Shown one piece after another: positions 16,713 to 59,092 of a stretch of 64,000 nucleotides of DNA (positions are counted from its first letter, which is position 1; each line of letters starts with the position of its first letter). The DNA is from Cordylochernes scorpioides (Eukaryota > Arthropoda > Arachnida > Pseudoscorpiones > Chernetidae). Made by a program: the position numbers and the translations under genes. The DNA lies in the NCBI GenBank assembly GCA_030710605.1, contig CP092882.1, forward strand, positions 2,561,319-2,625,318. Reading direction: 5' to 3'. The notes below the pieces were generated by a model. That model was not told where the DNA came from. It saw only the letters and a program-made list of their open reading frames with translations, and ran no database searches.

Positions 16713-16744
16713 CTGCTGAAGGCCGTTTTTCTTTCTCCGAAAGT
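16713..16744 (+). other. GA-hairpin-GAAA motif (ribozyme-like)
   Basis: CTGCTGAAGG, a CT-rich loop, then CCGAAAG. Only a short GG/CC stem closes here, making this a weak member. Confidence 0.35.
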
Positions 16745-16896
16745 TGCTATCTTTGTATCAATAGAGAGGAAACCTCTGTACACGGTGTTATCGAAACCAG
16801 ACTACATCTTCACGGAAGATTAAGTTTTTTTTTTATATTTGAAAACAAATGAATTTTTAATTAAGGATACTGATAATACTATGCGATAATACTCGT

Positions 16897-16898
16897 AT

Positions 16899-16938
<40 letters not shown>
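16897..16938. repeat. (ATTT)n microsatellite
   Basis: About ten tandem ATTT units. Confidence 0.9.
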
Positions 16939-17021
16939 AATTACAACATCATGTGATGAGTTGGGAAATTCGCCTGGATCATTATATCACAAAAGTAGAA
17001 AATCGTGAGGTGTTTCCCTCT

Positions 17022-17052
17022 TGTTGAAGAAGAGAAATGCTCGAAAGCTCGA
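17022..17052 (+). other. GA-hairpin-GAAA motif (ribozyme-like)
   Basis: TGTTGAAGAAGAGAAATGCT then CGAAAGCTCG; a GAG/CTC stem closes the hairpin. AATAAA-like sequence follows. Confidence 0.4.
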
Positions 17053-17140
17053 CTAAATAAAACACCTTACAAGAAACTAATTTGTATTTCTTTATAATAA
17101 TCATATATATATATATGTTAAATTAAAATGTTATAACACC

Positions 17141-17176
17141 TTGATAAAGGTTGGCGTTCAGCCAACTGAAATATTG
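17141..17176 (+). other. GA-hairpin-GAAA motif (ribozyme-like)
   Basis: TTGATAAAG is followed by stem GTTGGC, loop GTTCA, stem GCCAAC and then TGAAATATTGG. The six-pair stem is perfect. Confidence 0.5.
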
Positions 17177-17204
17177 GTAAAATAAATGATGCCAATATAT
17201 GCCT

Positions 17205-17465
17205 TTTTAAAATTCAAAACTATTATAGACGCGTATGATTATTTTTTAAATAAAACAATTTCTACTGTCCTTACTGGAAAAATTAATGGGAGAGCCTGGC
17301 TCATCAGTGGTTAACCCTCCCAGCGGTTTCGCCAGTTTAATCTATCATACCGCTGTTATATTGCATTTTTGGAACTTCTTTTATAGTGATACTGATGCTA
17401 GACTCTTGGAATGGGTATTTTAGATTAACTATGGACATAAGCTTTGAGGACAGTAGAATTATATA
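17205..17465 (+). mobile_element. Family B element, unfolded full-length form
   Basis: It contains TTTCTACTGTCCTTACTGG near the left end, CCCAGCGGTTTCGCCAGTTT in the middle and CTTTGAGGACAGTAGAATTA at the right. The inverted ends are CTACTGTCC/GGACAGTAG. Confidence 0.7.
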
Positions 17466-18000
17466 TATTTATAAATATATAATATGCTTCATAATATGCA
17501 TTTTTAAGTAAAGATTTATTTATGGATCGCTCTATTTTCAAAATAATATATATGTATATTTATTTCACTATTTATATAAGGAGAGAAATATATATAATTA
17601 TTTGATATAGGATTTTGTGTAAAATATTTGAATTACAGATGATGGTGTGAGAGTTGTGAAAGTAATTTGCACCCGGGGAGTGTATGCAAATACACGGTTC
17701 ATCCCTACAACATACCCGACGTCCAATTACACGGATTTCTTTCTTCTGTCCTCCCGTTAATGTAACATCTTTTGGTTGGAATATTCATCCAAACTTTTCC
17801 TTCATCTTATTTTATCTTTGAATATTTCAGACATAGAGTTATGTTTTCTTCTCCGTCGGGAGTTCGATATGCCCATTTGATTAACCCTAATGTTTATCTT
17901 TTCATCATATTTACATCTATTTTTGCAAAATAGAGAAATCCATAAATAATTCTTTAATTAAAAAGACATATATTCGCATAATTTATTTTACCAATATTTC

Positions 18001-18034
18001 AGTTGGCTGAACGCCAACCTTTATCAAGGTATTA
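18001..18034 (-). other. GA-hairpin-GAAA motif, inverted copy
   Basis: Reverse complement of the 17141 motif, stem GTTGGC/GCCAAC. It forms an inverted pair with 17141 and 18243. Confidence 0.5.
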
Positions 18035-18059
18035 TAACATTTTACTATAGGCAAGTTAC

Positions 18060-18205
18060 ATATATAAACATTCGAAACTATTATAAGATTCTTTGTGAAA
18101 CTAAACAATTTCTACTGTCCTTACTGCAATGGAAAAATTAATTTCAAAAAGAATCTTAAGCGTCTAAAATAGTTTCGAATTTTCATAACAGATGGCGCGC
18201 TAGTG
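18060..18205. mobile_element. Family B element, fold-back
   Basis: Left arm CGAAACTATTATAAGATTC, right arm GAATCTTAAGCGTCTAAAAT then AGTTTCGAAT. CTACTGTCCTTACTGCAATG lies inside. AGATGGCGC follows at 18190-18198. Confidence 0.7.
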
Positions 18206-18242
18206 CATCATAATATATATAAACATTAATATGTTTTAATAC

Positions 18243-18279
18243 CTTGATAAAGGTTGGCGTTCAGCCAACTGAAATATTG
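18243..18279 (+). other. GA-hairpin-GAAA motif (ribozyme-like)
   Basis: CTTGATAAAG, stem GTTGGC/GCCAAC with loop GTTCA, then TGAAATATTG. Matches 17141. Confidence 0.5.
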
Positions 18280-19454: not shown

Positions 19455-19615
19455 TAAAGGTCACCTCTCCCATTAGAATAGACGTCAAAACCAGACGCCA
19501 TCTATTGACCGTCGCCCCAAACTAGAAGCCTCGAGTCGGTAACAAAGCCACAACACCAGTTTTGGATAACTGAGAAGCGCCACCTTGAGACAATAGTTTC
19601 GAGCTAAAGTGTTTT
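19455..19615 (+). mobile_element. Family A element, left half only
   Basis: Matches the left end of 15248-15529 (CACCTCTCCC, CAGACGCCATCTATTGACCG, CACAACACCAG) and then diverges; the right inverted end is missing. Confidence 0.65.
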
Positions 19616-20139
19616 CATTTGATAACTTGTGGATATCATGGAATTACAGTCCGCCCTGGACTTACAAGGGCCATTAATCCGAAACCATGGTCTCTCCATG
19701 TCGACGATTTTCAATTTTCTAAAGCTGGACAGTTTTGCTTATATATGGCCGACACTGGAATCTTGGCTATGGTACTTAATCAAACTATGTGAACATAAGC
19801 TTCAAGGAAAATAGGATTACATGTAAATATTTGCATTGAGCCATGTTCTCCCGCAAACAATTCGTATATATTTTATGTCCGTCATATGGGATCTTTGGAA
19901 AGAGAAAAAATGGCGAGCTGAAGGAAACTTGGTCACAAATTTAAGATATAAATTTAGAAATCATAGACACGTGTATTATCATTTAGTTCTGTGTATATTT
20001 ATAAATGAAAGAGATGGGAAAGTAAAGAAGAAGAAAGGTCAGGCTTAAAATGTATAAAATATTATATAGGAATCATATATATAGGGGTCGGTAGTCCTAT
20101 CATGATATATACATATATGTTTTTCAGAAGGCAGAGCAC
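19616..20139. other. No gene seen
   Basis: AT-rich sequence; short open frames only, without coding character. Confidence 0.4.
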
Positions 20140-20307: not shown

Positions 20308-20344
20308 CTTGATAAAAGTTGGCGTTGAGCCAACTGAAATATTG
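20308..20344 (+). other. GA-hairpin-GAAA motif (ribozyme-like)
   Basis: CTTGATAAAA, stem GTTGGC, loop GTTGA, stem GCCAAC, then TGAAATATTGG. Confidence 0.5.
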
Positions 20345-22265: not shown

Positions 22266-22296
22266 AAGCTTTCGAGAAAATATTTTTCTTCAACGG
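22266..22296 (-). other. GA-hairpin-GAAA motif, inverted copy
   Basis: On the - strand CCGTTGAAGA, an A/T stem, then TCGAAAGCTTG. It pairs with the direct copy at 22408. Confidence 0.4.
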
Positions 22297-22407: not shown

Positions 22408-22440
22408 CCGTTGAAGATAAAAATTTGCTCGAAAGCTTGC
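22408..22440 (+). other. GA-hairpin-GAAA motif, direct copy
   Basis: CCGTTGAAGATAAAAATTTG then CTCGAAAGCTTGC, followed by AACACCTCAAATAAACTC as in the inverted copy at 22266. Confidence 0.4.
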
Positions 22441-22965: not shown

Positions 22966-23155
22966 ATGGTACCTCTCCCTTTTATTATGAATCGGAACAA
23001 TACACTGTTTTATCGATCTAGTAAAAAACTTCGCTAGTGATGATAAAGAATTATCCACAATACTGATGAGGGCCATAGCCCGAAACCATGGTATACAGGT
23101 TGTTGGTTTCTGTCTGAATTTACCAAAACTGGTGTTGTGGCTCATCCTTTAGCAT
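22966..23155. mobile_element. Family A-related element, diverged fragment
   Basis: Contains GGTACCTCTCCCTTTTATTA, a CCCGAAACCATGGTATAC segment and CACAACACCAGTTTTGG (- strand), as in 44188-44300. Confidence 0.5.
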
Positions 23156-23244: not shown

Positions 23245-23450
23245 TATATAAAAATTAAAGGATTTAAAAGCGCGAATGTTTCTTTTATACATAAAACGAA
23301 CTTCTACTGTCCTTACTGCGATGAAAAAATATATTGGGAGGGCTTTTTCATCGCAGTAAGGACAGTAGAAGTTCGTTTTATGTATAAAAGAAACATTCGC
23401 GCTTTTAAATCCTTTTATTTTATATGTATAAATGGCGCGTTATTGCTTTG
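23245..23450. mobile_element. Family B element, short-armed palindrome
   Basis: Left arm 23257-23331 and right arm 23345-23430 are inverted copies (GGATTTAAAAGCGCGAATG, ACTGTCCTTACTGCGATG). The centre GGGAGGGC is all that remains of the internal part. Confidence 0.85.
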
Positions 23451-26305: not shown

Positions 26306-26526
26306 GTATCTATAGAGAAGGAAGTTCTATCGGATAGAGCACAGAACCTGAGGTCATACTTCTACCCCTCTTGCCGTTTGTTTTCTTCTGTGTAAAAACA
26401 AATCCCACCATTTCTAAATCAACTCAGACTTGGAAGGCTTTGCTTTTTGCTGTCACTTTATCTATCAGCTTCAGATGACAGACGTTGTATGGTTGTGATC
26501 TGGACCTATACAAAGTGAACCTACAC

Positions 26527-28268
26527 TGTCTGGATGCCTGCAATATCTTGATTTCACTGTGTCCAATGTCTGGATGCCTGCAATGTCTTGATATCACTGT
26601 GTCCACTGTCTGGATGCCTGCAATGTCTTGATTTCACTGTGTCCACTGTCTGGATGCCTGCAATGTCTTGATTTCACTGTGTCCACTGTCTGGATGCCTG
26701 CAATGTCTTGATTTCACTATGTCCACTGTCTGGATACCTGCAATGTCTTGATTTCACTGTGTCCACTGTCTGGATGCCTGCAATGTCTTGATTTCACTGT
26801 GTCCACTGTCTGGATACCTGCAATGTCTTGATTTCACTGTGTCCACTGTCTGGATGCCTGCAATGTCTTGATTTCACTGTGTCCACTGTCTGGATACCTG
26901 CAATGTCTTGATTTCACTATGTCCACTGTCTGGATTCCTGCAATGTCTTGATTTCACTGTGTCCACTGTCTGGATTCCTGCAATGTCTTGATTTCACTGT
27001 GTCCACTGTCTGGATGCCTGCAATGTCTTGATTTCACTATGTCCACTGTCTGGATTCCTGCAATGTCTTGATTTCACTGTGTCCACTGTCTGGATACCTG
27101 CAATGTCTTAATTCCACTGTGTCCACTGTCTGGATACCTGCAATGTCTTGATTCCACTGTGTCCACTGTCTGGATACCTGCAATGTCTTGATTCCACTGT
27201 GTCCACTGTCTGGATACCTGCAATGTCTTGATTCCACTGTGTCCACTGTCTGGATACCTGCAATGTCGTGATTCCACTGTGTCCACTGTCTGGATACCTG
27301 CAATGTCTTAATTCCACTGTGTCCACTGTCTGGATTCCTGCAATGTCTTGATTTCCTGTGTCCACTGTCTGGATGCCTGCAATGTCTTGATTTCACTGTG
27401 TCCACTGTCTGGATACCTGCAATGTCTTGATTTCACTGTGTCCACTGTCTGGATACCTGCAATGTCTTGATTTCACTGTGTCCACTGTCTGGATACCTGC
27501 AATGTCTTGATTTCACTGTGTCCACTGTCTGGATACCTGCAATGTCTTGATTTCACTGTGTCCACTGTCTGGATACCTGCAATGTCTTGATTTCACTGTG
27601 TCCACTGTCTGGATACCTGCAATGTCTTGATTTCACTGTGTCCACTGTCTGGATACCTGCAATGTCTTGATTCCACTGTGTCCACTGTCTGGATACCTGC
27701 AATGTCTTGATTCCACTGTGTCCACTGTCTGGATACCTGCAATGTCTTAATTTCACTGTGTCCACTGTCTGGATGCCTGCAATGTCTTAATTTCACTGTG
27801 TCCACTGTCTGGATACCTGCAATGTCTTGAATTCACTGTGTCCACTGTCTGGATACCTGCAATGTCTTGATTCCACTGTGTCCACTGTCTGGATACCTGC
27901 AATGTCTTGATTCCACTGTGTCCACTGTCTGGATGCCTGCAATGTCTTGATTCCACTGTGTCCACTGTCTGGATACCTGCAATGTCTTGAATCCACTGTG
28001 TCCACTGTCTGGATACCTGCAATGTCTTGATATCACTGTGTCCACTGTCTGGATACCTGCAATGTCTTGATTTCACTATGTCCACTGTCTGGATACCTGC
28101 AATGTCTTGATATCACTGTGTCCACTGTCTGGATGCCTGCAATGTCTTAATTTCACTGTGTCCACTGTCTGGATGCCTGCAATGTCTTGATTTCACTGTG
28201 TCCACTGTCTGGATACCTGCAATGTCTTGAATCCACTGTGTCCACTGTCTGGATACCTGCAATGTCGC
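26527..28268. repeat. 40-bp satellite, about 43 units, abutting a GABA-B exon
   Basis: The unit is CTGTCTGGATACCTGCAATG followed by TCTTGATTTCACTGTGTCCA, with point variants. The array ends within about 12 bases of the first possible 3' splice site of the exon at 28281. The + strand contains no AG dinucleotide throughout. Three units make 120 bp, so open frames of the MDTVESRHCRYPDSGHS type appear on the - strand; they are not genes. Confidence 0.95.
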
Positions 28269-28399: not shown

Positions 28400-29480
28400 G
28401 TAAGTTGTACGTCCCGCCAGACAGGCCGCACTCGGTCCAGTTATCTGACGTGCTGTGGCGGCTTGAGATTCAAACGTTAATCAACACGTAGTTCGCTCCA
28501 TACGAGTACTACAAAATGTCATTTGGGGAACAATATCGTCCAGTTCCTTGTATGACTCTTTTATTAAATCTTGTTTAACTTTCGGGTCTTGAAGCCCTTC
28601 TACAGGAGTATTGCTGACTGATTATACCCTTCTTAGAAATAAATATTTATTTATAGAATGGTTCCAAGAACTGAGGGTTTGAGTTGATAAAAGATTTTAT
28701 TTGTTACAAATTTTAACGATAAATGGCAATTGAATTTATTAAAAGATTTTATATAATAAATTTTTCCCTGGATGTGTTTTCTACAAAGGATATGAATTAT
28801 ATGGGTTATAATTCTGTGAAGTATCTAAATGTGGATGAGTTGACCTGGGAGACTGTCTTTTCCCATTTTGCATATCTCCCCAACCACCTAATGGCCCCAC
28901 TGATATGATTTAATCGAATCGATACGCGGAGATTTTTTTAAAAAACCCTTACACAGAAATTGCTAATATCCAATAGGAAGCCATTTTTTCCGCGCCAACG
29001 ATCTTGATTGGCTCACACAAAGCCAATGGAAGTTTTGAACTGGGATTCCAGCAAAATTTGATTTCTCCATTTTTTTTGCTTCCCCCCTTTAATGCAAATT
29101 CAATTTGAAAAACAATATCATTTTTTTTTTATTTCTTTAAAAATTCGTGGATATATTTTTCCACATAGGTCGGTTATCTTCTGGGATAATTGCGGGCGGT
29201 TTATTTGGAGTTAAATGATATTTATTGCGTTTAAATTGATGTATTTATTACACGCGAGTCTCAAATGTGAAATTTTCTGTAAACTTATTCTTTTGAAATA
29301 TTTATTGAAAATCTATCTTTATGGATATTTCTATAAATTCAATTGTCATCTATCGATCAAATTTATAACAATTACATTTTTATGCCAATGTGTTTCTTTG
29401 TAATAATATGTATGTAATATTTGATGGTATTATTAAAAAAGAAATACATATTGCCAGAAAAAAAACATATTTTTACAAAT
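28400..29480 (+). other. Intron 1, left part; no other gene seen
   Basis: AT-rich. One inverted GA-hairpin-GAAA motif lies at 28580-28610 (stem GGG/CCC). Nothing else is recognised. A (TA)n run occurs at 29487-29503. Confidence 0.6.
28580..28610 (-). other. GA-hairpin-GAAA motif, inverted copy
   Basis: On the - strand CTGTAGAAGGGCTTCAAGAC then CCGAAAG. The GGG/CCC stem parallels the GGGC/GCCC stem at 36243. Confidence 0.4.
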
Positions 29481-31669: not shown

Positions 31670-33850
31670 ATATAACTCTACATATATTTGGAAGTTATTT
31701 GCATATGTTATATGTTTGAGGTATGCAAATACACGTGTATCAAGAGAGAATCCCCAATATCATTTCGTAAATGTGTATAACATATATATAGGAAGGTTAA
31801 CAAGTATAGAGTGGAATTTGACCGTATATCCTACTTCAATAAGACGACAATTTATCTACATAGTTACATAATGTGGATTTAACTACATGTTTATGTGCAA
31901 ATGATATTTGATTAATAAATCTGTGAAGAATTTGTCAGGAAAATAAACACATTTATTAACATTTCGATTATCTCTGCAGTTTGACCTCACATTGTGTGGC
32001 TCCGTTATTGAGGTGGTGGCCTTGAGGATGAGTAGTTTGATGTCTACAGTAGCAAAGATATATTGTACTTTAGTAATGCTTCAGGATAACTTACCCCACT
32101 GTGTTCCATCTACAATGTCAACAGATTGTAGGAATTCTAATTCTCGAAAAAATATGTTGAGATGCTCACTACTGCGCCCGCGTGAAAACACGCCACCAAC
32201 TGTATTATTCCGCACTAGGCCTTTCCGCTGTGAGCAAATAGTTCCAAATAGTATCTAAACAACCTAACCAAACGTAATATAACCTATCTGAACTTTACCT
32301 AGCTGATTGATACACTCGACACCAGTGGCTGCAGAAATAGGTATCTCCTAACAGGATACTTCTAACAACTTTCTTATACTCGTATATATATATATATAGT
32401 GTAAAAACTATATAATAAAAATATAACAGTGATTCTACATTTAAAACTCAAGGAGCAAACTGATAAGAATGATAAATCATATCAAGTAGATTTGGTTAGA
32501 TTAGCAAGCTAAATCTAAATTAATTATAACAATAAATAGTTGTATAGTTTTATAGTTAAGTTTTCTATTAAAATTATCTTCATTATTTTGATTATTTAAA
32601 TTCAAATTATAAAATTTGTAAATTGTTATTATTTAGTATAGATAGAGAGAAAAAAAAATCCTTTACTTCTAAACATCATCTAGTTAATTATATATTTATA
32701 ATTAATAACAATAAAATTTAACAACGTAACGTCTTTTGCATCGGCTTTTACACGTCATTTAGACATACTCTAATCCTATATATAGAATAATAGAAGTGAG
32801 AATATATATAATATTATACATTTCAGTAGTTAGAGAAAAGAGAGAAAGACAGAACCATGCACTTTTAATCAAACTAATAATAAGAAAACAAAAAGTTTTG
32901 TAAAGAAGGTAGATAAGATTGTTAGTATATATATATATATTTTTATAATTTTATATTTTATCCTTTTTTTTTTTTTTAATGATTTTTTAATTTTTTTTAT
33001 TTTAAAATATGAATATAAATAGTTGTATTTAGTAATATATCTATACTATTAATTAACTTTTGTTATAAGTTTGGTTATTATGTTTTGAAACCCTAATGGT
33101 AGACCAGACATATACAAAAAAAAATTAAATTGGAGTAATTATTGAAAAAAGAGATCTGCTGAACCGGGAATTCTCAAATAGAAGTTCAGCGGCGTTTCAT
33201 CCCTTCTCTATTACGTCATAGACCTCTTTTCAACCGGATTTTATGTGTTAATATAAAGTTACTTCAGTGAAACATTTATATGAACAGATATAACAAATAT
33301 AAGTGTTAACAAATTCCAACTGTGAACCTACCTTGCCCGCGACGCCTTCAACTGTAAACATCTATTTCTGGATGACACATGTTGTGGGGGGGGGGGACAA
33401 AATTAGACCGTTTGTTCTGAAGTTTTAGAACAACAAGACATTCAAAGAAGAAAGAAAAGATAGTTAAGGGAAGAAAACCAAAAAAACTTTATAATCTTTA
33501 CAGCCAGTTATATTAAAATAACTGATTCAACACTTATTCATCTTTCAATATTCCTTTTAAAAGGCAAATTATTAGAGTTTAATAAAGCTATTAAATGTGA
33601 AAATTCACTTTTATTTAATTTCCATTTTTCTCCCCAGAAATTGGAGATTAAACAAAATGAATTCTATACAATATTACTTTAAACATCTTGTGAAAAAATC
33701 TTCAAATCAGCTATTTAATTTAAGTTTAACTAATTGTTAAAGATTATAAATTTGTATTAGTTATTATTGAGAGAAATTATAGAAAGTTGATTTAATAAAT
33801 GGATACTTCCATTTATTTTTTTTAAAAGTATTTTATAATAGATATACTGT
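31670..33850. other. Intron 1, extremely AT-rich; no gene seen
   Basis: From about 32370 the sequence is dominated by A/T runs, with a poly(G) run near 33387. It may be flank or tail of the reverse transcriptase remnant at 33860. Confidence 0.5.
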
Positions 33851-33859
33851 TGAAATATT

Positions 33860-35470
33860 TTATTTGTCTGATAATAAATTTGTTTTTAATAAATATTCCA
33901 TGTTTAAATTTTTAACATCTTCTATGAAATTTTCTAATATATTATTTATTCTATAAAATCTTAGAAACTGTCCAAAGTATATACCTTTACAACAATTTAA
34001 TGATATATTAGAATTCATATTACAGTATTTTATAATATTGAAATTATAATTACTTTTTTTATTATAAATTTCAATAGCATTATTTGTAAGGTCTATATTT
34101 AGGTCTAAAAAGTTAACTTTTTTGTTTCTATAAATTTTTTCATTGTTCTTAAGTTTCAAGTATTTAGGATAAATTTTAGGTATTAAGTTTTTGAACTGTG
34201 GATTATTAAATATTATGATGTCATCTACATAACGGAACATTTGCCAGTTAACATTATTTTGTAGAAAGTATTCTCTTTCGTACCAGAATAATATTAAGTT
34301 TGCTAATAAAGGACTTGAAGATGTTCCCATGGGAACGCCTTCTGATTGAATATATATTTTATTTTTAAATTCTATATAGTTAAAATTTAAAAATGTTTCC
34401 AGTAGAGTTTTTGCTGTTTTAAGATCTAATTTAATTGTTTTATATCTGTTATGAATAATTTCAATGTGGAAAGTTTTGTCATTAATGATTTCGTTAAATA
34501 AATATTGGTTATTTTATTATTTAGATCTCTTAAATTTATTTTAGAATATAGGTCTCAAAGTCAAATGTGTGTACTGTTTCAATGTTTGTCCAATTGTTCA
34601 TTAAATAGTTAATGATTTTTTTATTTGAGTCGATAAATTTATAATTATATTTATTAGTTAATTTATTTATAATAAATTGTAGTGTTGAAGCTAATTGTAT
34701 ATCAATGTTTTTTATAACTGAATTTATACCAGATGTGATTGTTCTGAAAGAAATAGGTTTTTTGTGTAGTTTAGGAATTATATAGAACTTTGGTATGTTT
34801 GGATTTTTGTAGTGATTATAAATTTTTAGTGAATTTTCAACGTTTTTGATGTCTTTTTTGATTTTTGTGGCTGTAGTTCTAGTTATTATCAATTTCCTTT
34901 TTTTAGTATATCGTGGTATAGATTTTTACAAATTATAGATAAGTTATTGGAACATTTATCTATAGGAGTGATAATAAAGTCCTTCTGTAATTTAATTATA
35001 TTTTCTTTAAAAGAAGGAATATCTGAATTAGGTTTTGTGTATTTAAGTGTATTATTATAATAATTTATAATTTCCTTTTTAATATTATGTTTCCATTACA
35101 GAAAAGTAAATTCTGGAATACTGTATTTTATACTAGTTTTATTTATGAAAATATCTATATCTTTTAATATAGATTTAATTGTATTATTATAATTGTGTTT
35201 AATTTGAGGTATATATTTATTCCCTTTATTTAAAATATCCTGATATTCTGGATTTAAAAAAGAAAAATTGCTAGTTAATATATGACCTGAGAACTTATAT
35301 CTATCAATATAGTTGTTGCAATTACATTTAATTTTTTTAAAATTTGCTAAATTATTAATAAATTGGTTATAATTGCAAACTAAATTACCTATATTTTTGT
35401 TGTATCTCCAGATTGTTTTGAAATTTAATTTTTTTATAGGGAAAAGATTATTAATGTTTTGGTTATTAAA
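33860..35470 (-). pseudogene. Penelope-like reverse transcriptase, decayed
   Basis: Reading leftwards, fragments in shifting frames give a KIKCNC cysteine pair followed by YKFSGHILTSNFSFLNPEYQ (about 35320-35230). KDFIITPIDKCSNNLSIICK (about 34990) and FYIIPKLHKKPISFRTITSG (about 34800-34740) follow, then FDFET (RT motif A), SEGVPMGTSSSPLLANL (motif B) and the catalytic YVDDI near 34220. These motifs and their order match Penelope-type reverse transcriptases, with PKLHK and the YVDD box intact. A TAA at about 35100, a frame change near 34895 and at least one more near 34530 disable it. No GIY-YIG domain is attached. Base composition is far more AT-rich than the other elements. Confidence 0.8.
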
Positions 35471-35539
35471 AATATCATTAAACTTAATATGATTAAATAA
35501 ATTGTTATTAAATTTAATGATAATATTAATTTAATTAAT

Positions 35540-39560: not shown

Positions 39561-39569
39561 TCTCTATGT

Positions 39570-41715
39570 GACTCCCGGACATCACAGTGTAGCTGAAATG
39601 ACTCCCGGACATCACAGTGTAGCTGAGGTGACTCCCGGACATCACAGTGTAGCTGCGGTGACTAAACGACCAGAGCGGTGACTCCCGGACATCACAATGT
39701 AGCTGCGGTGTCGAAACGACCAGAGCGGTGACTCCCGGACATCACAGTGTAGCTGAGGTGACTAAACGACCAGAGCGGTGACTCCCGGACATCACAATGT
39801 AGCTGCGGTGACGAAACGACCAGAGCGGTGACTCCCGGACATCACAGTGTAGCTGCGGTGACTAAACGACCAGAGCGGTGACTCCCGGACATCACAGTGT
39901 AGCTGCGGTGACTCCCGGACATCACAGTGTAGCTGAGGTGACTAAACGACCAGAGCGATGACTATGAGACCAGAGTGGTGACTCCCGGACATCACAGTGT
40001 AGCTGAGGTAGCAAATCGTCGACAGCGGTGACTCCCGGACATCACAGTGTAGCTGCGGTGACTAAACGACCAGAGCGGTGACTCCCGGACATCACAGTGT
40101 AGCTGCGGTGACTAAACGACCAGAGCGGTGACTCCCGGATATCACAGTGTAGCTGAGGTGACTAAACGACCAGAGCGATGACTATGAGACCAGAGTGGTG
40201 ACTCCCGGACATCACAGTGTAGCTGAGGTAACAAATCGTCGTCAGCGGTGACTCCTGGACATCACAGTGTAGCTGCGGTGACGAAACGACCAGAGCGGTG
40301 ACTCATGGACATCACAATGTAGCTGCGGTGACTAAACGACCAAAGCGGGGACTCCCGGACATCACAATGTAGCTGCGGTGACTAAACGACCAGAGCGGTG
40401 ACTCCCGAACATCACAATGTAGCTGCGGTGACGAAACGACCAGAGCGATTAGACCAGAGCGGTGACTCCCGGACAACACAGTGTAGCTGCGGTGACTCCC
40501 GGACATCACAGTGTGGCTGCGGTGACTCCCGGACACACATCACAGTGTAGCTGCGGTGACTCCCGGACACACATCACAGTGTAGCTGCGGTCGCTAAACG
40601 ACCAGAGCGGTGACTATGAGACCAGAGCAGTGACTCCCGGACATCACAGTGTAGCTGAGGTGACAAATCGTCCACAGCGGTGACTCCCGGACATTACAGT
40701 GTAGCTGCGGTGACTAAACGACCAGAGCGGTGACTCCCGGACATTACAGTGTAGCTGCGGTGACTAAACTACCAGAGCGGTGACTCCCGGACATTGCAGT
40801 GTAGCTGAGGTGACTGAACGACCAGAGACCAGAGCGGTGACTCCCGGACATCACAGTGTAGCTGAGGTGATTAAACGACCAGAGACCAGAGCGGTGACTC
40901 CCGGACATTACAGTGTAGCTGCGGTGACTAAACTACCAGAGCGGTGACTCCCGGACATCACAGTGTAGCTGAGGTGATTAAACGACCAGAGACCAGAGCG
41001 GTGACTCCCGGACATTGCAGTGTAGCTGAGGTGATTAAACGACCAGAGACCAGAGCGGTGACTCCCGGACATTGCAGTGTAGCTGAGGTGATTAAACGAC
41101 CAGAGACCAGAGCGGTGACTCCCGGACATCACAGTGTAGCTGAGGTGATTAAACGACCAGAGACCAGAGCGGTGACTCCCGGACATCACAGTGTAGCTGA
41201 GGTGATTAAACGACCAGAGACCAGAGCGGTGACTCCCGGACATCACAGTGTAGCTGAGGTGATTAAACGACCAGAGACCAGAGCGGTGACTCCCGGACAT
41301 CACAGTGTAGCTGAGGTGATTAAACGACCAGAGACCAGAGCGGTGACTCCCGGACATCACAGTGTAGCTGAGGTGATTAAACGACCAGAGACCAGAGCGG
41401 TGACTCCCGGACATCACAGTGTAGCTGAGGTGATTAAACGACCAGAGACCAGAGCGGTGACTCCCGGACATCACAGTGTAGCTGAGGTGATTAAACGACC
41501 AGAGACCAGAGTGGTGACTCCCGGACATCACAGTGTAGCTGAGGTGATTAAACGACCAGAGACCAGAGCGGTGACTCCCGGACATCACAGTGTAGCTGAG
41601 GTGATTAAACGACCAGAGACCAGAGCGGTGACTCCCGGACATCACAGTGTAGCTGAGGTGACTAAACGACCAGAGCGATGAGACCAGAGCGGTGACTCCC
41701 GGACATCTCCGACTG
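39570..41715. repeat. 50-bp and 57-bp satellite
   Basis: The left part uses a 50-bp unit (GACTCCCGGACATCACAGTG, TAGCTGCGGTGACTAAACGA, CCAGAGCGGT) with irregular deletions. From about 40800 the unit gains GAGACCA and becomes 57 bp, repeated about 15 times with almost no divergence. As 57 is a multiple of three, open frames of 316 and 245 codons appear on opposite strands (SYTVMSGSHRSGLWSFNHL and TPGHHSVAEVIKRPETRAV units). I regard both as by-products. Confidence 0.93.
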
Positions 41716-42327
41716 CTGCGGTGACTAAACGTCCAGAAAAGTGAAGATTGCCAATTGAATCGATCATCGCAGTGCCAAGCTCCATTAGCCGCCCTCATCA
41801 GGACGTTGGCACACGTCCAGGCCCGGCTTCCCGCGGCAGCGTGCGCTTTATGGTTCACTCACCGGGGGTCCTTCAGACAGGGGACCAATGTACCGTGCTG
41901 TCTGCCGCGCCGTTTACATGACCCTCTGTGAGACATATACTAGCAAAGGTCATTAACACAAGCCCATAACTATATAATTAATTATAATTATATATAATTA
42001 ACGAATATGTCGTTTTAATTCTCTATATTCCGAGTATATGATCCGAGTGTAAAATTGGGAAATCGTTTAAAAACAACAAAGAAATCTCACAATGAGTTAT
42101 CTTTTTCCAATTTCCAAATGTTATCTTTCAAGCGATAATTGCTTTTCGACAGGCTTAATTAAAACACGGTCTTACCAGAAGTGTTTACAATTATGCAACG
42201 TGTGGGGATAGTTACAACTGATATCTGAAATTTCTAAATTAACATTTTTTTTTTTAAATATTTTATTTTTATAATTAGCTATTTACATATATATTTTTGC
42301 GTTTTACTCCATTATTGTGTTTTATGG

Positions 42328-42535
42328 AATATATGTATTATAAAACTATTTTAGTGGCGTAATATTCTTTTTTAAAATAAAACAATTCTACTGTCCTTAT
42401 TGCGATGGAAAAATTAAAGGGAGGGCCTGGCTCATCAGTAATTTTTCCATCGCAGTAAGGACAGTAGAATTGTTTTATTTTAAAAAAGAATATTACGCCA
42501 CTAAAATAGTTTTATAATTTGATAACAGATGGCGC
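42328..42535. mobile_element. Family B element, palindrome
   Basis: Arms of about 85 bases: TATAAAACTATTTTAGTGGC, AACAATTCTACTGTCCTTAT on the left and their inverse on the right. The loop is GGGAGGGCCTGGCTCATCAG. AGATGGCGC directly follows (42527-42535). Confidence 0.85.
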
Positions 42536-42598
42536 TCTAGTACATCGTAGAATATATGTATATTTAAATTTTGTGACGAACTAAAATTAAAGACCTTC

Positions 42599-42895
42599 TT
42601 ATAAGCTATCTAAGGTATTGTGATCTTCCTGTTTATGCTCTCTGTTATATTCATTGGAAATGAGAGATTCTAAAAGTTGATATTTGTTCTTAATATTTCT
42701 GTAGTGACATTTGGTTTCTGTTATGTTGAATTGGTGACCGGTCTGTGCAATATGTTGATAGATCATAGAACGTTGGTCTTTTGTTCTGATATTTCTGTTA
42801 TGTTCGTTCTGTCTGTATCGAACTTCCTGTTTCACCTATGTAGGTAGCATTGAAGTCTTGGCATTGGATTGAATATATTGTATTGGTTTGAAGAT
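42599..42895 (-). pseudogene. GIY-YIG endonuclease domain of a Penelope-like element, remnant
   Basis: On the - strand one frame gives TNTIYSIQCQDFNATYIGET then GSSIQTERT. After a frameshift near 42830 the frame continues RQNEHNRNIRTKDQRSMIYQ and an HIAQTGHQFN block. The (I)Y(S)-10-YIG spacing and the following R..EH and H....GH segments match GIY-YIG domains carried C-terminally by Penelope-like elements. No reverse transcriptase precedes it, so it is a 5'-truncated or decayed copy, separate from the element at 33860. Confidence 0.8.
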
Positions 42896-44180
42896 TGGGT
42901 TTCAACTGTGTATCAGATTTAGTGATAGGATTTCTAGGAAGTTGACCAATGAATTAATGGTTACTGAAATATGTTTGTATTATTTTTCTACTGGGAAGAT
43001 GTGCAATATTCTCATTACCTTTAGAATAAGGAATGTTGTCTCTATGTACATCAGTTGTTGGGAAGAGTTAAACTACGTCTATTGATAATAGAGGCCCATT
43101 TTAATAATTATACTTGTCCTAAAAATATAAATAAACATTCTCTATAAACTCAATAATGGAGTAAAACGTAAAAATGTAAATAGCTATCATATTTTAAAAT
43201 AATTCGAACGTAATAAATTTTGTCTTTTTAGTTTAAATTTCAGCCCATAAATATCCTCACGTATATTTGTAAACACTTCCTGTAAGAAACAGTTCATGTT
43301 TTAATTAAGGCTGTTGAAGAGTGATTATCACTTGAAAGCTTGAATTTTAAAATAAGAAAATGAACTCATTGTGGCTTTCAAACGATCCGAGTGTAGTTTA
43401 AATGTACTGACAAAAGTTACTATTACGGGTTATCACACAAAAATGGAATATACTAGGACCTAAAGTAACTTAATACACAGCGTACACTCAAGAGTACAAC
43501 ACCAACAACAAGAAGGAAGTCAATAAAACTCACAATTTGTAAAATAAAAACAAAACAGTACTTATCTTTATTGTAGCGTTGGTAGGGATCGGACTCGGGT
43601 CACACCGGGATGCGAAGAGATCTCCAGACACGGACAAATCACGTAGAAAAACACTTTACGCGTCTCCACACCAATTCTCCACGTTCTGGGCCCCCCTCGC
43701 ATTCCCTTAGTCCCCTCTTATATACAGACATGGCCACATTCGTCCAATGAGAAGACGTGAGAGATTGGTTTATTAACAAACGAAGACAACATTCTTCCCG
43801 CTAAAAACTGATCACAAAAGACTGAAAATGTTTATCAATATAATTTGACAGTACCGTGGGTAGAGAAAGGTGGCGTAGTACTAACAGATGAAAGCTTCTG
43901 TTGCTCACCCTGCACTCTAGGGCTTTGAGTGTTATTACAGAACCCCACGTGTATCTGCACTTGTTTGATCTGTTCGAGCTGTGCATCTATCTAAGCCACT
44001 TTTGCTGGCGGGTCGTGCGCAAAGAACCATTGAGGCAGTTGTGCTCTCTTCATCTCCTATATCACACACGGGAGTCAGTGTACGTGGCTCGGGGTGATGG
44101 GCCTAGATGAAGGTTGTGTTCGAGCACTGTCAGTTTGTATATGGGAACATACCAATAGTCCAAACATACCAATAGACCAA
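42896..44180 (+). other. Intron 2; no gene seen
   Basis: Contains one GA-hairpin-GAAA motif (43311). Near 43570-43640 a GTAGGGATCGGACTCGGGTC stretch resembles a B box on the - strand, but I could not define an element. Confidence 0.5.
43311..43342 (+). other. GA-hairpin-GAAA motif (ribozyme-like)
   Basis: CTGTTGAAG, stem AGTGA, loop TTA, stem TCACT, then TGAAAGCTTG. The stem differs wholly from the GTTGGC stems elsewhere yet stays paired. Confidence 0.45.
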
Positions 44181-45738: not shown

Positions 45739-45894
45739 TATATTGATGGACCAATATTCTACCGTTAAAATTTCTATTTATATTTCGGCCATAGATTTAG
45801 CCACGCCATTTTTACAGCTAAACAATTCTTTGGAAAATTTGGAAGATTACATTCGATGTCTTGTGAATATCATGAAACCAAAGCCTTTCCTTGA

Positions 45895-46055
45895 CTGCAA
45901 AGTGTCATAGTCCCAAACCAAAGTCTCCAGGCTTCTCAATTTGCCAAAGCTGATGTTGTGTCTTTGTCACCGGCCCAAGTCCGCTAGTTTGCGGAGACTT
46001 TCAATAAATGGTGCTTAGTTTTAGCGTCTATTTTAACGGAAGAGAGGCGATTTAT
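45895..46055 (+). mobile_element. Family A element, right half
   Basis: GTTGTGTCTTTGTCACCGGC and TAGCGTCTATTTTAACGGAA; the left tip is not found nearby. Confidence 0.6.
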
Positions 46056-48388: not shown

Positions 48389-48468
48389 GAAAGCTTTCGA
48401 CATAGAACTCTTCGACGAGTCTCCCATTGAAGGAAGGATGTTGAAGAGATTGTGGCTCGAAAGCTTTC
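48389..48468. other. Inverted pair of GA-hairpin-GAAA motifs
   Basis: The - strand motif (48389-48419: GTCGAAGAG ... GTCGAAAGCTTTC) faces the + strand motif (48440-48468: GTTGAAGAGATTGTGGCTCG, AAAGC), so the pair forms a small palindrome. Confidence 0.4.
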
Positions 48469-49074: not shown

Positions 49075-49102
49075 CTGACGAGGGCAAACAGTCCGAAAGG
49101 CG
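49075..49102 (+). other. Hammerhead-like core motif
   Basis: CTGACGA, stem GGGC, loop AAACA, stem GTCC (one G-T pair), then GAAAGGCG. Both conserved blocks of a hammerhead core, CUGANGA and GAAA, are exact. A third stem with a cleavage triplet was not identified. Confidence 0.5.
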
Positions 49103-49149
49103 TTTGTGGATGGCTTTTCTTGATTTATTAAGAAATTGGGTTGGCCAAA

Positions 49150-49551: not shown

Positions 49552-49593
49552 CTTGACACAAGGCTTTGGCGTTCGGCCAACCGAAATATTGGC
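49552..49593 (+). other. GA-hairpin-GAAA motif (ribozyme-like)
   Basis: CTTGACACAAGGCT, stem TTGGC, loop GTTCG, stem GCCAA, then CCGAAATATTGGC. Confidence 0.45.
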
Positions 49594-50560: not shown

Positions 50561-50599
50561 CAATATTTCGGTTGGTTAACCGCTAACCTTTGACAAGGC
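50561..50599 (-). other. GA-hairpin-GAAA motif, inverted copy
   Basis: On the - strand CCTTGTCAAAGGTTAGCGGT then TAACCAACCGAAATATTGG, with a GGTT/AACC stem. Confidence 0.4.
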
Positions 50600-51516: not shown

Positions 51517-51760
51517 GATACTTCGGTCAGTAAATATTTTTTATTACCTCGACGTTTCGACAAAAATATTTTGTCCTCGTCAGGAGCGAACAATAATTAA
51601 AACATTTGGCAAAGCGTTAAAAATGATTAGAATAATGTTTTAATTTTTGTTCGCTGACGAGGACAAAATATTTTTGTCGAAACGTCGAGACAATAAAAAA
51701 TATTTACTGGCCAAAGTATCTTTTATTTGAAGAACTATGAATTCCGGCCAGGCAGCCTCT
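51517..51760. repeat. Penelope-type fold-back with two inverted hammerhead-like cores
   Basis: The left arm contains the - strand core (51549-51583) and the right arm the + strand core (51654-51690). The core reads CTGACGAG, stem GACAAAA, loop TAT, stem TTTTGTC, GAAACGTCGAG. Outer arms carry ACTGGCCAAAGTATCTT and GGCCAGGCAGCCTCTATTTT. The segment between the arms is about 60 bp. Confidence 0.7.
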
Positions 51761-52103: not shown

Positions 52104-53650
52104 GTAGGTCGCCTTGTTGGGTTGTCCTGTTGGGTCACCTTGTTGGGTTTTGTTGTTGGGTCACCTTTTATTGGCTAAGAGGTAATCTTGTTAGACTGAT
52201 GGGTTACCATAACGGGCTGAGAGGTCATCTCTATAGACTTGTAAATCACTTTTATAAACAAGCAAGTCAATTTAATAATCGAAGAGAGAGATCCCTTTCT
52301 TCAGTCACTGACTGTTCCTCTGGTCAAGTACCTCTGACTTGTTTTATTGGATTATCGGTAAGGCCAGGTAAGTTATTCGTGGCCGAAAAAATCCCTTCAG
52401 TCGGTCCAATTCTGGCTGAATCTGTTCTGACGCCGGGATACGCCGGTAGTTCGACATTTCTTGGAGTCAGAGGGCGTCGCTGAAGTATATAAGTTACCTC
52501 CACGTGCTGGTGCATTCTTTAAACGCACACGTGCCGCGCGGGTTCATGGGATTGTTATCTTATGGTAGTCATTCCAGAGTGGTTCTTCCTCGATGTTCGA
52601 GCTAAGATGGAGAAAGTTAAGTATTTTTCATTGATGTACTTTTTTATTTTGCTTTTGTACGAGAAAACATGTGAATAATTTTATTTTTTCAAATTGGACG
52701 ATCTTTATAAAAACGTTTCTAAATGTGAATCCTTCTCCAGAAGTGTATGACTCTAAAAGTGGCGTTATATTGAAAAGAAAAATTATTTTGCGAACAAAAA
52801 AGACGTTTTTTCCCCTGAGTGGGTACTTATTGATATGTCCGTGTCGGACGACTGTCCCAATATGAGGCCTATATATGCAGATAGGTGGGATATGCATTTA
52901 AACCGGGTACAGGAAATTGCTGCGATATTACACGGCACACCTGAATGCTGAGTGATGCTAGCTCCTTTTTATGCGGGAGCTCGAGTGAGCCTCTATCGGA
53001 AAAAAAATATATTCCGCCAAGGATTATTTTCTATTTATTCATTTTTTCTTCCACGGAGTCTTTTACATCGATCCATCAGAGTGTTTGAAACAGTTTTATA
53101 ATTTGTTTCTGAACGAATTATATCCTTGAAGGATTTTTTGCTATCTCTAAGTGTAATATTTCAAGAAATATTTTTGACTAGAATTTTTATATTTTTAAAA
53201 TTATATGGTGGTACAAGAATATTCTCTATTACCCACAAGGTACATGTGTATAAAAAGGGGCACGTCTCCCTTTAAAATGTTCTAATGCACTATTAAATGA
53301 AGAGGTGGCACTTATAGTACCCGAGTTCCATATCTCACTTCAACATTATTTTTCACGGCACAAATATTCGGTCTACGAACGGATCTAGAACATTCTAACC
53401 CTTCTTGGTGATTATCATGATATTGGTTTCCTGATCTCTCCCTTTGTATAGATGAGAGGATTTGGCCGAGTAGAGGCTTGATCTATTGTTTCTACAAATT
53501 GTTTTATTGCCAAAATATTGTTGCACAAGTCATTTCTCTGCTCTGGGGGTTTCACCCCACAAACTGACAGAAGTTGACTTCATATATGTTCTAAAACGTA
53601 CCCACTTACGGGGTTAGCTTTTCTTGATCAATAAAGAATGGGTATTTGGT
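52104..53650 (+). other. Intron 3, left part; no other gene seen
   Basis: It begins with a GTTGGGT-rich stretch (52110-52210). The remainder is AT-rich. No repeat family was recognised apart from a GCACGTCTCCCTTTAAAATG fragment near 53260 that recalls family A. Confidence 0.5.
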
Positions 53651-53659
53651 CAATTCTGG

Positions 53660-53745
53660 AATATTCAAAAATCAGCTATTAGTTGATATTTATTCCGAAA
53701 GATGGCGCAAGTCATCAGCAACCTTTAGTTGCACGATCAGGATTT
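53660..53745 (+). repeat. Family G repeat
   Basis: AGTTGATATTTATTCCGAAA, AGATGGCGCAAGTCATCAGC and GTTGCACGATCAGG. Confidence 0.7.
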
Positions 53746-55742: not shown

Positions 55743-55955
55743 CTCACCTCTCCCGTCAAATTAGACGCAAATATTATCTCCATCCATTCTGACGATTCTC
55801 TTGTGGACCTTATGAAACCACCTAGGGCGGAAGGCGTTCTGAATTCTCCGAATCTGGTGTTGTGGCCATCTACCCGAGTCTACTGGATTGTAGAGAATAT
55901 TAATAAGTGATGGTGCTTAGTTTTTAAGTCTGTTTTTTTATACAGATGAGGTGGC
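55743..55955. mobile_element. Family A element, diverged copy
   Basis: CTCACCTCTCCCGTCAAATT at the left; TGGTGCTTAGTTTTTAAGTC and TACAGATGAGGTGGCC at the right. Confidence 0.6.
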
Positions 55956-56179
55956 CCTTCTTTCTATATAAAGGTTATACAAGAATTAAATGATATGTTT
56001 TCAAAGTAAATGGTGCGGCGGACACTCAGTCTGACCCCACACATCTGGAATAAGTGAGGGCGACACAAGGGAGACTTTCCACGGACGTCACTCGATCTTG
56101 TCTGATTTGTCCGCACCGATGGAACACTGGCTTAGTAGAACTCTCCTTTATCATCATCATTATTATTGTAAAGATAGAG

Positions 56180-56350
56180 GTTGCCTGGCCGGCATTCATA
56201 GTTCTATGAAAAATAGACACTTCGGCCAGTTAGAGTTTTTTTTATTTTTCTCAACGTTTCGACAAAAATCTTTTGTCTTGGTCAAGTTGTCGAAGCGTTA
56301 AGAAAATATAAAACTCTAACTGGCCGAAGAGTGTCTATTTTTCATAGAAA
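56180..56350. repeat. Penelope-type fold-back
   Basis: Left GGTTGCCTGGCCGGCATTCA and ACACTTCGGCCAGTTAGAGT; right AACTCTAACTGGCCGAAGAG. An inverted core lies at 56250-56286 (stem GACAAAA/TTTTGTC, GAAACGTTGAG on the - strand). Confidence 0.65.
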
Positions 56351-57240
56351 TATATTATCATCATCATCGTTATTATTATTATTACTATTAAAAGGTATAC
56401 CGTATCACATTTCCTATTATCTGTACTACATGTGACGTAACCTATGTGTCCCGTGATACCATGCTATGTGTACTCGCACCAGAGTCTGTGGTAACATCCC
56501 AATGTTCCATTCAATATACCTCTCCCTATATATATTGTTAGACCGTTTGTAGTTTAGCAAGGTCATAGACTTTGATTTCTTTCTCTGTGTTGTACACAGG
56601 GCGGTTGTCCATAGTCAAAGTTAATAAGTAAATTACCTTCTGAATTTTGAGTAAAATCATTCCTCCAGGGAAAAGTGTCTTTTCACAAACATTTTTATTG
56701 TTCTTTAGCTTTAGGGGCCCTTCTACCGGAGAAAACATGGTATAATGATACGCCAATAGAACACGAGTTAAATATAATCGGATACTATTTTACATATTTT
56801 TATGAAGATATAAAAATAGTATTTTTACATATTAACTATTATACAAATTGAGACAAAATATTTTAAAAATATATATCTCTAATAAGAGGACAAACAAATG
56901 AATAAATAAATATAGGCTACTAGAAAAAAACAAGGAAGCGAGGAATACATAGTTAGGCTGTAGTTATCATTCTAAATTTATTACCTTTGTTTGTTGTGTC
57001 TTCGTAGTTGGTGCTCCCAAGTCTTCGCGTTCGTCGCTTCTCCCCGAAATAAACAATGAAGATATAAACAATGCTACAAAAGGATGACACTATAAAAAGA
57101 ATGAGATGCTATAGTACAATTATATCTTAATATTTATTTTAAATAAAATATCAGAGATATCGAATAAATGATGAACCAAACATGATGCGACAATATTATG
57201 GATTATAAATACTATGGAATCCCAAATTAGCGTTGAACCT
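56351..57240 (+). other. Intron 3; no gene seen
   Basis: AT-rich; nothing recognised. Confidence 0.45.
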
Positions 57241-57247
57241 ATTTAAA

Positions 57248-57585
57248 TATATATGTGGTAAATTTTACATATATGTATTTTATGGTAAATTTTACATATA
57301 TGTATTTTATGGTAAATTTTACATATATGTATTTTATGGTAAATTTTACATATATGTATTTTGTGGTAAATTTTACATATATGTATTTTATGGTAAATTT
57401 TACATATATGTATTTTGTGGTAAATTTTACATATATGTATTTTATGGTAAATTTTACATATATGTATTTTATGGTAAATTTTACATATATGTATTTTGTG
57501 GTAAATTTTACATATGTGTATTTTGTGGTAAATTTTACATATATGTATTTTGTGGTAAATATCACATATATGTATTTTAGGATTT
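57248..57585. repeat. 27-bp tandem repeat, about 12 units
   Basis: Unit GGTAAATTTTACATATATGT plus ATTTTAT. The period is a multiple of three, so both strands show open frames made of nine-residue units (YGKFYIYVF and its counterparts); these are by-products. Confidence 0.93.
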
Positions 57586-59040
57586 CTCTCCTATCAGTCG
57601 TAGGGACAGGTAGAGCAGCAATAAGGCCTCCAAAGCTCAAATCCTGTTCCCCAAGTAAGTTTGGCGTGTAGCCACACGGCATATTGGAAAATTAAAGATA
57701 TTTTGATGAACCTCGTTTTTAATAAATGAAGTATGGATTGCTCTCTCCGTTTTCAAATATACGTAGATTAATCTTTAAAGAAAATAAATCGAATGTTTTT
57801 TTAGAGCGATGTTGTTTAAAATTGGGACTATTGGACCATACTGCATGTGATTTTTCAAACTTTTGGAAACCAGAATAACTCAGAAATATCTTCAGCTGAG
57901 CTCCTCCGAATGTATTCCTTTGTTGGAATGGATTTTTACTGGACTTTGATTCTCCAGTGGAAGTGTCCCCCAGTCGGTGTTGTTCCAACCAAGGTATATC
58001 ATTGGCAGAAATAGTAGTGGCACTATGAAACTGATATCTCTGATGATTATTATCTTTTTTTTTTTCAGATCCCTAAAATCCGCGAATTAACCTTTGATCT
58101 GACCTATTTACATACCCCTGGGTTGAAACAGCGACTCCTCCCACGCATAACTCATGACATACTTTCATCTAGGTATCTGTCGAGATATTTTGTTACGAAA
58201 CACAAAGATGAGGTTTTATTCCTATAGATGTGAGAATGGGATCTACCCCGAGAAGAAAGACAGACGAAGAAAGTTTCCCGCGCAGTAACAAGGGCACTCG
58301 AGCGGGATGCAAATACTCGCAGTTGGTCCGGGATGGGAGAAAGCACTTAGTGCACTTGGCAGGTCGATGTTGGTGGAGCTTGTATTGTTGGATGTTTGTA
58401 TTGTTGAATGGTGTTGTGGGTGTTTATATTGTTGAATGGTGTTGTGGCTGTTTGTATTGTTGGGTGAACGTGGTGACTTACTAGCCGTCTCTACCTGGCT
58501 GTTGTTGTAGTGCCGGGTCGTTTATAGTGTTGGAGTTGCTAGGTGTCGTTTCATAGGTGATTTGTCACTCGTGTGTCTGTAGGTGCTAGGGTATTTTTTG
58601 TAGATGTTGGGGTTTTGTTAACGGCGCTGTTGGGGGTGTAGCTACCTCACACCACCTATTCCGTGGTTCAGGGAAAGTCATGCAGCAGACTCCTTCTCCC
58701 CGAGACTCCCTCCCGCACACATCCTGCTCCCGCGGTCTTCTAGATGTATTTCTTACTCAGACTTCTCAGAATAGGTTATTCTTTGCTTACAACTTCTCTC
58801 TGTAGGACTTCTGTCGAATTCCTAAAATTGTTTTACGCGGGGAGGCGTTGTCGATTACAGCTTGTAACAATTCCTGAGTTGTCATTTCGACCCGATGTTG
58901 ATGGGATTGCTAGGTTGTCTTCTACACTGGATGTGACAGCTCATTCCTCCATATGCGGACTGCTGTGTAACACCATTGAGACAATCATTATGTCAAGTTT
59001 TATTTATATAAACTGACGATTAAAACACATCGACCTTTTC
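57586..59040 (+). other. Intron 3, right part; no gene seen
   Basis: A short degenerate tandem of GTTTGTATTGTTGAATGGTG words lies at 58375-58470. The rest is unique-looking. Confidence 0.5.
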
Positions 59041-59051
59041 AAACTTTTATT

Positions 59052-59092
59052 TCCCGAGGTTTCGTTGAGAACCACTTTGGTCCTTTACAAGG
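59052..59092 (-). other. GA-hairpin-GAAA motif, inverted copy
   Basis: On the - strand CCTTGTAAAGGACCAAAGTG then GTTCTCAACGAAACCTCGGG, with a GGACC/GGTTC stem. AAATAAAAG follows. It lies about 190 bp upstream of exon d. Confidence 0.4.

Follow-up and report, generated by a model that had tools for sequence, protein, structure and literature searches.

What is the short hairpin motif that recurs along a 64,000-nucleotide (nt) stretch of the genome of the pseudoscorpion Cordylochernes scorpioides (assembly GCA_030710605.1, contig CP092882.1, positions 2,561,319 to 2,625,318 of the forward strand; hereafter the window, position 1 being its first letter), and which element carries it? An earlier note described copies of the layout YTGNNGA(A/G), stem, loop, stem, YGAAA, and proposed that they resemble the core of hammerhead ribozymes known from Penelope-like elements (PLEs). 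Our analysis indicates that the sites are very probably copies of a type I hammerhead motif, with stem I, stem II and a self-complementary helix III of 4 nt, carried in the pseudo-long terminal repeats (pLTRs) of PLEs, and that many of the copies in the window are decayed remnants of insertions. Four features uphold the proposal: stem I in the predicted register, a self-complementary helix III with mostly NUH cleavage sites, stems II that differ and are complementary, and the location of family B in the pLTR of a canonical PLE. Judged from the sequence, the kind of motif is a known one, the PLE hammerhead, and its core is a variant; copies in the genome run to tens of thousands, and in many of them the core is unusual.

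The copies fall into families A, B and C and a separate class K. In families A, B and C alike, a single additional purine, 9a, stands between A9 and stem II. Class K lacks it and has the canonical CUGANGA ... GAAA core without insertions, from which family A differs by U3-A8 and 9a, family B by U6 and 9a, and family C by 9a. Read 5′ to 3′, the layout would be one strand of stem I, YUGNNRA, the purine 9a, the hairpin of stem II, GAAA, three letters NNU completing the helix III word, the letter H followed by the point of cleavage, and the partner strand of stem I.

Helix III and the predicted cleavage site

The earlier note had failed to identify stem III and a cleavage triplet; both were found downstream of GAAA. 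A self-complementary word of 4 nt is made up of the last A of GAAA and the three letters after it; it is AUAU in family A, AGCU in most of family B and ACGU in family C. The letter after this word is mostly U, C or A, giving the NUH sites AUU (A), CUU, CUC and CUA (B) and GUC (C). By its sequence, helix III is formable only between two copies, and the NUH site would then follow it.

Self-complementarity was tested on 89 distinct sites from the window, a 200-kb sample of the genome and targeted loci (105 sites, sixteen repeat rows being merged). The middle dinucleotide of the word was Watson-Crick self-complementary in 60 of the 89, compared with 26.5 ± 4.2 after shuffling (maximum 42 in 5000 shuffles), in a test that mixes families, keeps chance hits and has a null that ignores relatedness. 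In alignment A1, a gapless alignment of 48 distinct family B copies, the word was AGCU in 36 rows, AGUU in two and AAUU in one. U16.1 was present in 47 of the 48 rows and H17 in 45.

Covariation of stems I and II

The letters after NUH pair with those before YUGNN to form stem I. The pairing strands differ between copies: UUCUC/GAGAA, GCUC/GAGC and GACUU/GAGUC occur in family B, CCUAGA/UCUAGG and ACCACG/CGUGGU in class K. Stem I provides evidence independent of selection, because it was not used in choosing the copies of alignment A1. There, 65.4% of the stem I cells were paired (52.3% after shuffling, 37.5-47.5% when slid out of register), and the covariation score was 0.388 (0.218 shuffled, at most 0.231 slid). 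The alignment keeps two probable chance rows (L009, L088), and its stem filter excluded some of the places L029-L068.

A second set, which restores these places, consisted of 40 distinct cores from L029-L068 chosen by pattern alone. Stem I had on average 3.33 pairs of 5 in this set, compared with 2.78 ± 0.13 in 5000 shuffles (maximum 3.33). The third pair of stem II was standard in 36 of the 40 cores (G-C in 22, A-U in 12), whereas shuffling gave 29.6 ± 1.5 and none of 5000 shuffles reached the observed value. The predicted fold of one copy (L031) contained stems I and II with two extra pairs stacked between them. In the alignment and covariation test proposed in the earlier note, stem I and the third stem II pair were above the shuffles; the fourth stem II pair and stricter pair measures were not. 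As far as can be read from the sequences, covariation supports stems I and II in the hammerhead register.

The earlier note had also regarded the stems of its sites as covarying. Between families, stems II do differ and stay complementary, and this is the comparison that counts. Within families complementarity is inherited and is therefore not independent evidence; the motifs at 17141, 17993(-) and 18244 are identical and that at 20309 is close. The twenty sites are not twenty independent cases, because they belong to few families.

Copy number and arrangement in the genome

The genome (2.62 Gb in 24 contigs) was searched on both strands for exact pattern matches, with the reversed pattern as control. 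Family B, defined by one stem-loop length and GG/CC closing, had 28,824 matches (12 in the control), family A 23,183 (0), the 31-mer of family C 1,270 (0) and the canonical core of class K 31,023 (0). Close pairs (at most 2 kb apart) were mostly head-to-head (-,+) in families B (14 of 16) and A (14 of 19), among the 100 matches listed for each; in class K, among the 100 matches listed, 6 of 18 were head-to-head and 10 lay on one strand.

Class K forms a tandem array of five copies at 338-bp steps (C1:5965536-5966911), whereas its copies in the window, at 23063 and 49075, are single remnants. Further tandem arrays were noted at C1:70446442-70456863 and C3:56225445-56226451, with steps of about 85 bp and multiples (family B-like, A8, two mirrored arrays) and of about 108 bp (class K-like).

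Copies in the window

The repeated layout is real: all 20 coordinates of the earlier note, whose heading spoke of nineteen, carry the described strings, and the observation of a recurring hairpin motif was confirmed. For minus-strand sites the coordinate given there is about the low end of the site. The features of the window are as follows.

17141-17175 (+): family A motif (UUGAUAA core, A9a, 7-bp stem II, helix III word AUAU, site AUU); descriptor, sequence
17993-18027 (-): family A motif; descriptor, sequence
18244-18278 (+): family A motif, head-to-head with 17993-18027; descriptor, sequence
20309-20343 (+): family A motif; descriptor, sequence
49553-49590 (+): family A motif, degenerate, with extra bases between core and stem II; sequence likeness
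50562-50596 (-): family A motif; descriptor, sequence
51551-51583 (-): family C motif (CUGACGA, G9a, helix III word ACGU, site GUC); genome match, descriptor, sequence
51654-51686 (+): family C motif, head-to-head with 51551-51583; genome match, descriptor, sequence
56253-56285 (-): family C motif, core degenerate; sequence likeness
36244-36274 (+): family B motif (CUGUAGA, A9a, GGGC/GCCC, helix III word AGCU, site CUC); descriptor, model 45.7 bits, E 5.9e-9
28576-28605 (-): family B motif (helix III AGUU, self-complementary with G-U); model 43.9 bits, E 1.7e-8, among the 48 training sequences
43311-43341 (+): family B-like motif, far side of the truncated PLE remnant; descriptor, model E 4.2e-4
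42122-42152 (-): family B-like motif 3′ of the endonuclease remnant of the PLE, with AGAU, not self-complementary, as helix III word; descriptor, model E 0.034
42608-42953 (-): C-terminal GIY-YIG endonuclease remnant of a canonical PLE; two pieces matched by the L016 domain in tblastn (35% and 43% identity, E 1e-16)
17021-17050 (+): family B-like motif, degenerate; model E 0.0011
16713-16746 (+): family B-like motif, degenerate; model E 1
22266-22296 (-): family B-like motif, degenerate (helix III word AGCU); model E 0.17
22408-22438 (+): family B-like motif, degenerate, head-to-head with 22266-22296; model E 1.2
48440-48466 (+): family B-like motif, degenerate; model E 0.08
48391-48417 (-): possible family B-like motif, weak; sequence only, missed by the family B model
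23063-23093 (+): canonical-core hammerhead of retrozyme type (CUGAUGA, GGGC/GCCC, helix III word the 8-nt palindrome ACCAUGGU, site GUA); descriptor, class K match, Hammerhead_HH9 13.8 bits against a gathering score of 52
49075-49104 (+): degenerate retrozyme-type hammerhead (canonical core, helix III word decayed); class K match, sequence
59056-59090 (-): site of the earlier note, no stem closing on GAAA, possibly chance; sequence

The motifs at 23063(+) and 42122-42152(-) were absent from the earlier list. That list had singled out 49075 and 51654 as exact hammerhead core words in a PLE setting: the latter is family C, with CUGACGA followed by G9a, whereas 49075 is a degenerate copy of the retrozyme type and not of the PLE type. 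The copies at 49075, 49553 and 56253(-) are degenerate and recognisable by sequence; at 48391(-) and 59056(-) the likeness is weak and chance may account for it.

A descriptor requiring YTGNNGAR, a stem of at least 4 bp and GAAA matched the window 10 times, compared with 1.92 ± 1.50 (maximum 6) in 60 dinucleotide shuffles of 2-kb blocks. A relaxed version (YTGNNRAR) had 21 matches against 5.05 ± 1.87 (maximum 11), and nine of the 20 sites passed it at the correct GAAA (17141, 17993(-), 18244, 20309, 36244, 43311, 50562(-), 51551(-) and 51654). We also trained a covariance model on 48 family B copies, 47 from the rest of the genome and one from the window (28564-28617(-)). Of its 15 hits in the window at E<=10, six had E values below 0.02 (one being the training row). 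Eight of the 15 lie at sites of the earlier list: 36244 (5.9e-9), 28576(-) (1.7e-8, the training row), 43311 (4.2e-4), 17021 (0.0011), 48440 (0.08), 22266(-) (0.17), 16713 (1) and 22408 (1.2). Seven more lie outside that list, at 56694(-), 16592(-), 42110(-), 11875(-), 35593, 11924 and 15861. In the 200-kb genome sample the model had 21 hits at E<=1, of which 6 were training rows.

Class K remnants covering a decayed hammerhead part were seen at 15246-15476(-), 19613-19717(+) and 45791-46043(+), and class K-like matches outside the hammerhead part at 14317-14385, 15473-15581, 19456-19536, 53609-53742 and 61181-61291. The window also has two minisatellite regions (26524-28266 and 39569-41737, with units of 40 bp in about 44 copies and of 50-57 bp), a long frame with RVT_1, RNase H and integrase (36-3398(-), Gypsy-like) and one with copia-type gag and integrase (4395-6617(-)). 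Near-perfect inverted repeats of up to 221 nt (100% identity) at 47384-47604/47736-47956, 42337-42518 and 23251-23421 belong to a palindromic family resembling miniature inverted-repeat transposable elements; one of them separates the PLE endonuclease remnant from the motif on its 3′ side.

The Penelope-like element that carries the motif

The motif is carried by a canonical PLE (L016) with a C-terminal GIY-YIG domain (Pfam GIY-YIG E 2.9e-4, 21.5 bits, below the cut-off of 22.6). At a tandem PLE locus (L091) the endonuclease frame ends at position 467 and a family B motif occupies 611-636. The frame that follows is open from 661, and about 100 nt separate the predicted cut from the first ATG in that frame; a family B motif is found again after the last PLE copy (L092). 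Family B is therefore located in the pLTR of a canonical PLE with tandem copies, as seen in these two stretches of one tandem locus. Truncated PLE copies elsewhere (L093, L094) are flanked by inverted motifs, and a decayed equivalent is present in the window at 42122-43341, with a minus-strand motif 3′ of the endonuclease remnant and a plus-strand motif beyond the other end.

The earlier note had pointed to a Penelope reverse transcriptase (RT) and a GIY-YIG remnant in the window. The C-terminal GIY-YIG piece at 42608-42953(-) is relevant, whereas the RT belongs to a different element. The RT fragment at 33767-35500(-) (33.8-35.5 kb; Pfam RVT_1 E 5.8e-8) is a degenerate copy of a permuted PLE, which elsewhere in the genome forms tandem copies spaced about 4,232 bp apart, its open frames reaching 838 aa and often being of 826 (150 scored places). 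We read a permuted, Naiad-like order for this element because a GIY-YIG-like region precedes the RT (tblastn 33% over 94 aa, E 5e-4); Pfam found nothing in that region. The family B model had no hit at E<=1 in two stretches of the permuted PLE (L089, L090), and the former had two loose-descriptor hits, on the antisense strand only. The RT element was rejected as the source of the motif on the strength of these two stretches. Naiad-like PLEs have been reported to be without canonical hammerheads; a literature search gave no confirmation of this.

The sequences suggest how the motif might work. In transcripts of tandem PLEs two copies would be joined by their palindromic words for helix III (ACGU, AGCU, AUAU), a pairing that would complete the core, and the RNA would be cut after NUH. 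The released unit would start about 100 nt before the next open reading frame (ORF), counted from the first in-frame ATG, and the element's own protein might aid cleavage. We infer dimerisation, cleavage and a role in transposition from the sequences; the one feature that points to cleavage in the dimer is the self-complementarity of the helix III words.

Core composition and alternative explanations

Among the 100 matches listed, family A had U3 with A8 in 98. C3-G8 to U3-A8 covariation is known in natural hammerheads, according to the section of PMC3088659 on core variants, and for this reason the family A core looks compatible with activity. Family C would need only the 9a purine to be tolerated, and on core grounds family B is the real puzzle. 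In alignment A1 the pair of positions 3 and 8 was C-G in 44 of the 48 rows, U-G in two and other in two, with G8 fixed in the pattern behind most rows; position 6 was left free, and the constancy of 9a is no evidence, because this letter was required. The 28,824 family B matches in the genome had 9a, G8 and any base at position 6. Other cores with the same stem-loop length were counted 286 times (A6 with 9a), 84 times (U6 without 9a) and 438 times (A6 without 9a), many of the 438 looking like class K with an extra loop base. The A8 form of family B had 1,761 matches (16 in the control).

Several results weigh against the hammerhead reading. A6 is replaced by U in 43 of the 48 A1 rows and an extra purine follows A9, while in the section of PMC3088659 on core variants a natural A6C hammerhead is described as slow or of low activity. 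Three of the 48 rows have G at the cleavage position, and in the 89-site test the off-register stem I offsets 2 and 6 were also above the null, though less than the predicted offset. The fourth pair of stem II did not covary (30 of 40 cores, 28.8 after shuffling). The whole-structure figures of A1 (77.8% paired, score 0.358, slid 0.118-0.198) overstate stem II, because all rows were required to have three stem II pairs and 41 of the 48 were obtained with GG...CC patterns. By stricter measures the whole structure had 7 pairs changed on both sides (6.3 expected, reached by 207 of 500 shuffles) and 24 further pair types (20.3 expected, reached by 19 of 500); for stem I alone the two values were reached by 489 and 114 of 500 shuffles. 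Fold energies of single copies, a weak test, were mostly unremarkable (z -3.28 to +0.14 in ten stretches). Families A and C, which by their likeness to family B presumably belong to PLEs, had no nearby PLE frame in the stretches looked at.

The search with hammerhead models that the earlier note proposed gave no Rfam match at gathering threshold and no hammerhead at E<=10 in the window. On small stretches the only hit was the sub-threshold Hammerhead_HH9 at 23063, and five further loci, two of them class K with canonical core, had no hammerhead hit. Since even canonical-core loci give nothing, Rfam is uninformative for so reduced a motif.

A rival idea, in our view possible but doubtful, is that of a conserved non-catalytic RNA hairpin of PLEs, for example a signal for RT binding or processing, either derived from a hammerhead or convergent and no longer cleaving. 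In its favour, the variant core prevails in family B, and passages of PMC11167929 report that an Anolis PLE hammerhead did not cleave unless protein was added and that mutants did not affect insertion in vitro. A plain hairpin would, however, have no need of stem I, U16.1, H17 and a self-complementary helix III, all of which are kept in register, and in family A the C3-G8 core pair is replaced by another pair, U3-A8, rather than lost. These features favour the hammerhead reading.

Within the hammerhead reading, we consider it rather unlikely that the core with U6 and A9a (CUGUNGAAGG...CCGAAA) represents a distinct and still working hammerhead class, in which a rearranged core with one inserted purine would replace the near-invariant A6 and cleavage would occur only in the dimer, probably with a PLE protein, and which would have spread to tens of thousands of copies in a 2.6-Gb genome. 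In passages of the hammerhead and PLE literature no mention of 9a or U6 was found, which is not meant to say that neither has been published.

That the motif is one long hairpin interrupted by an internal loop instead of a three-way hammerhead, with an outer stem of CUGACG-like and CGUC-like words, is very improbable: the predicted monomer fold of family C does pair GACG with CGUC, but in the 48 family B copies the outer stem does not covary (35.8% paired, 36.1% shuffled) and was rejected for this family. Matches that a loose descriptor would find by chance in AT-rich repeat DNA, of which about 2 (original descriptor) to 5 (relaxed) are expected per window and to which 59056(-) and 48391(-) may belong, are a negligible explanation of the whole set, being refuted by the genome counts of families A, B and C against their controls.

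Comparison with known systems

Minimal type I hammerheads in PLE pLTRs have reportedly been described by Cervera and de la Pena in 2014 and by Lunse, Weinberg and Breaker in 2017. The families found here are altered in core letters held to be near-essential but retain stems I and II and a palindromic helix III, and would thus offer a natural series for studying activity, dependence on dimers and help by protein.

Published descriptions give the following picture. Passages of PMC7761336 describe minimal type I hammerheads, usually without helix III, which are dispersed in thousands, in part in PLE pLTRs, and may self-cleave via dimers, their role being a mystery. PLE hammerheads are likewise usually minimal and without helix III in a passage of PMC6155905. 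Passages of PMC7229834 mention a coral whose type I motifs, more than 6,000 in number, form 16 families, and up to 120,000 retrozymes in the axolotl, and propose that PLEs mobilise retrozymes. In C. scorpioides hammerheads of both the PLE type and the retrozyme type are present together and are very numerous, which is the setting of that proposal. Earlier self-cleavage of a PLE hammerhead at 3-25 mM Mg2+ is mentioned in a passage of PMC11167929.

Compared through these descriptions (PMC7761336, PMC7229834, PMC6155905), our motifs share with the minimal hammerheads of PLE pLTRs the pLTR location, tandem copies, a tiny or missing helix III, proposed dimer cleavage and thousands of dispersed copies; they differ by 9a in all three families, U6 in B and U3-A8 in A. 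The Poseidon PAc hammerhead of Anolis, as presented in parts of PMC11167929, is similar in its stems I and II and loop II and in its position near the start of a canonical PLE ORF; the ORF there begins at stem II, whereas here the predicted cut in L091 is about 100 nt before the first in-frame ATG. Among the natural core variants of Perreault et al. 2011 (PMC3088659) U3-A8 has a counterpart in family A, whereas the 9a insertion and U6 are not mentioned in the section on them. Class K, with its canonical core, 338-bp tandem array, 31,023 matches and window copies at 23063 and 49075, resembles the metazoan non-LTR retrozymes described in passages of PMC7229834, and by its lack of 9a stands apart from families A, B and C.

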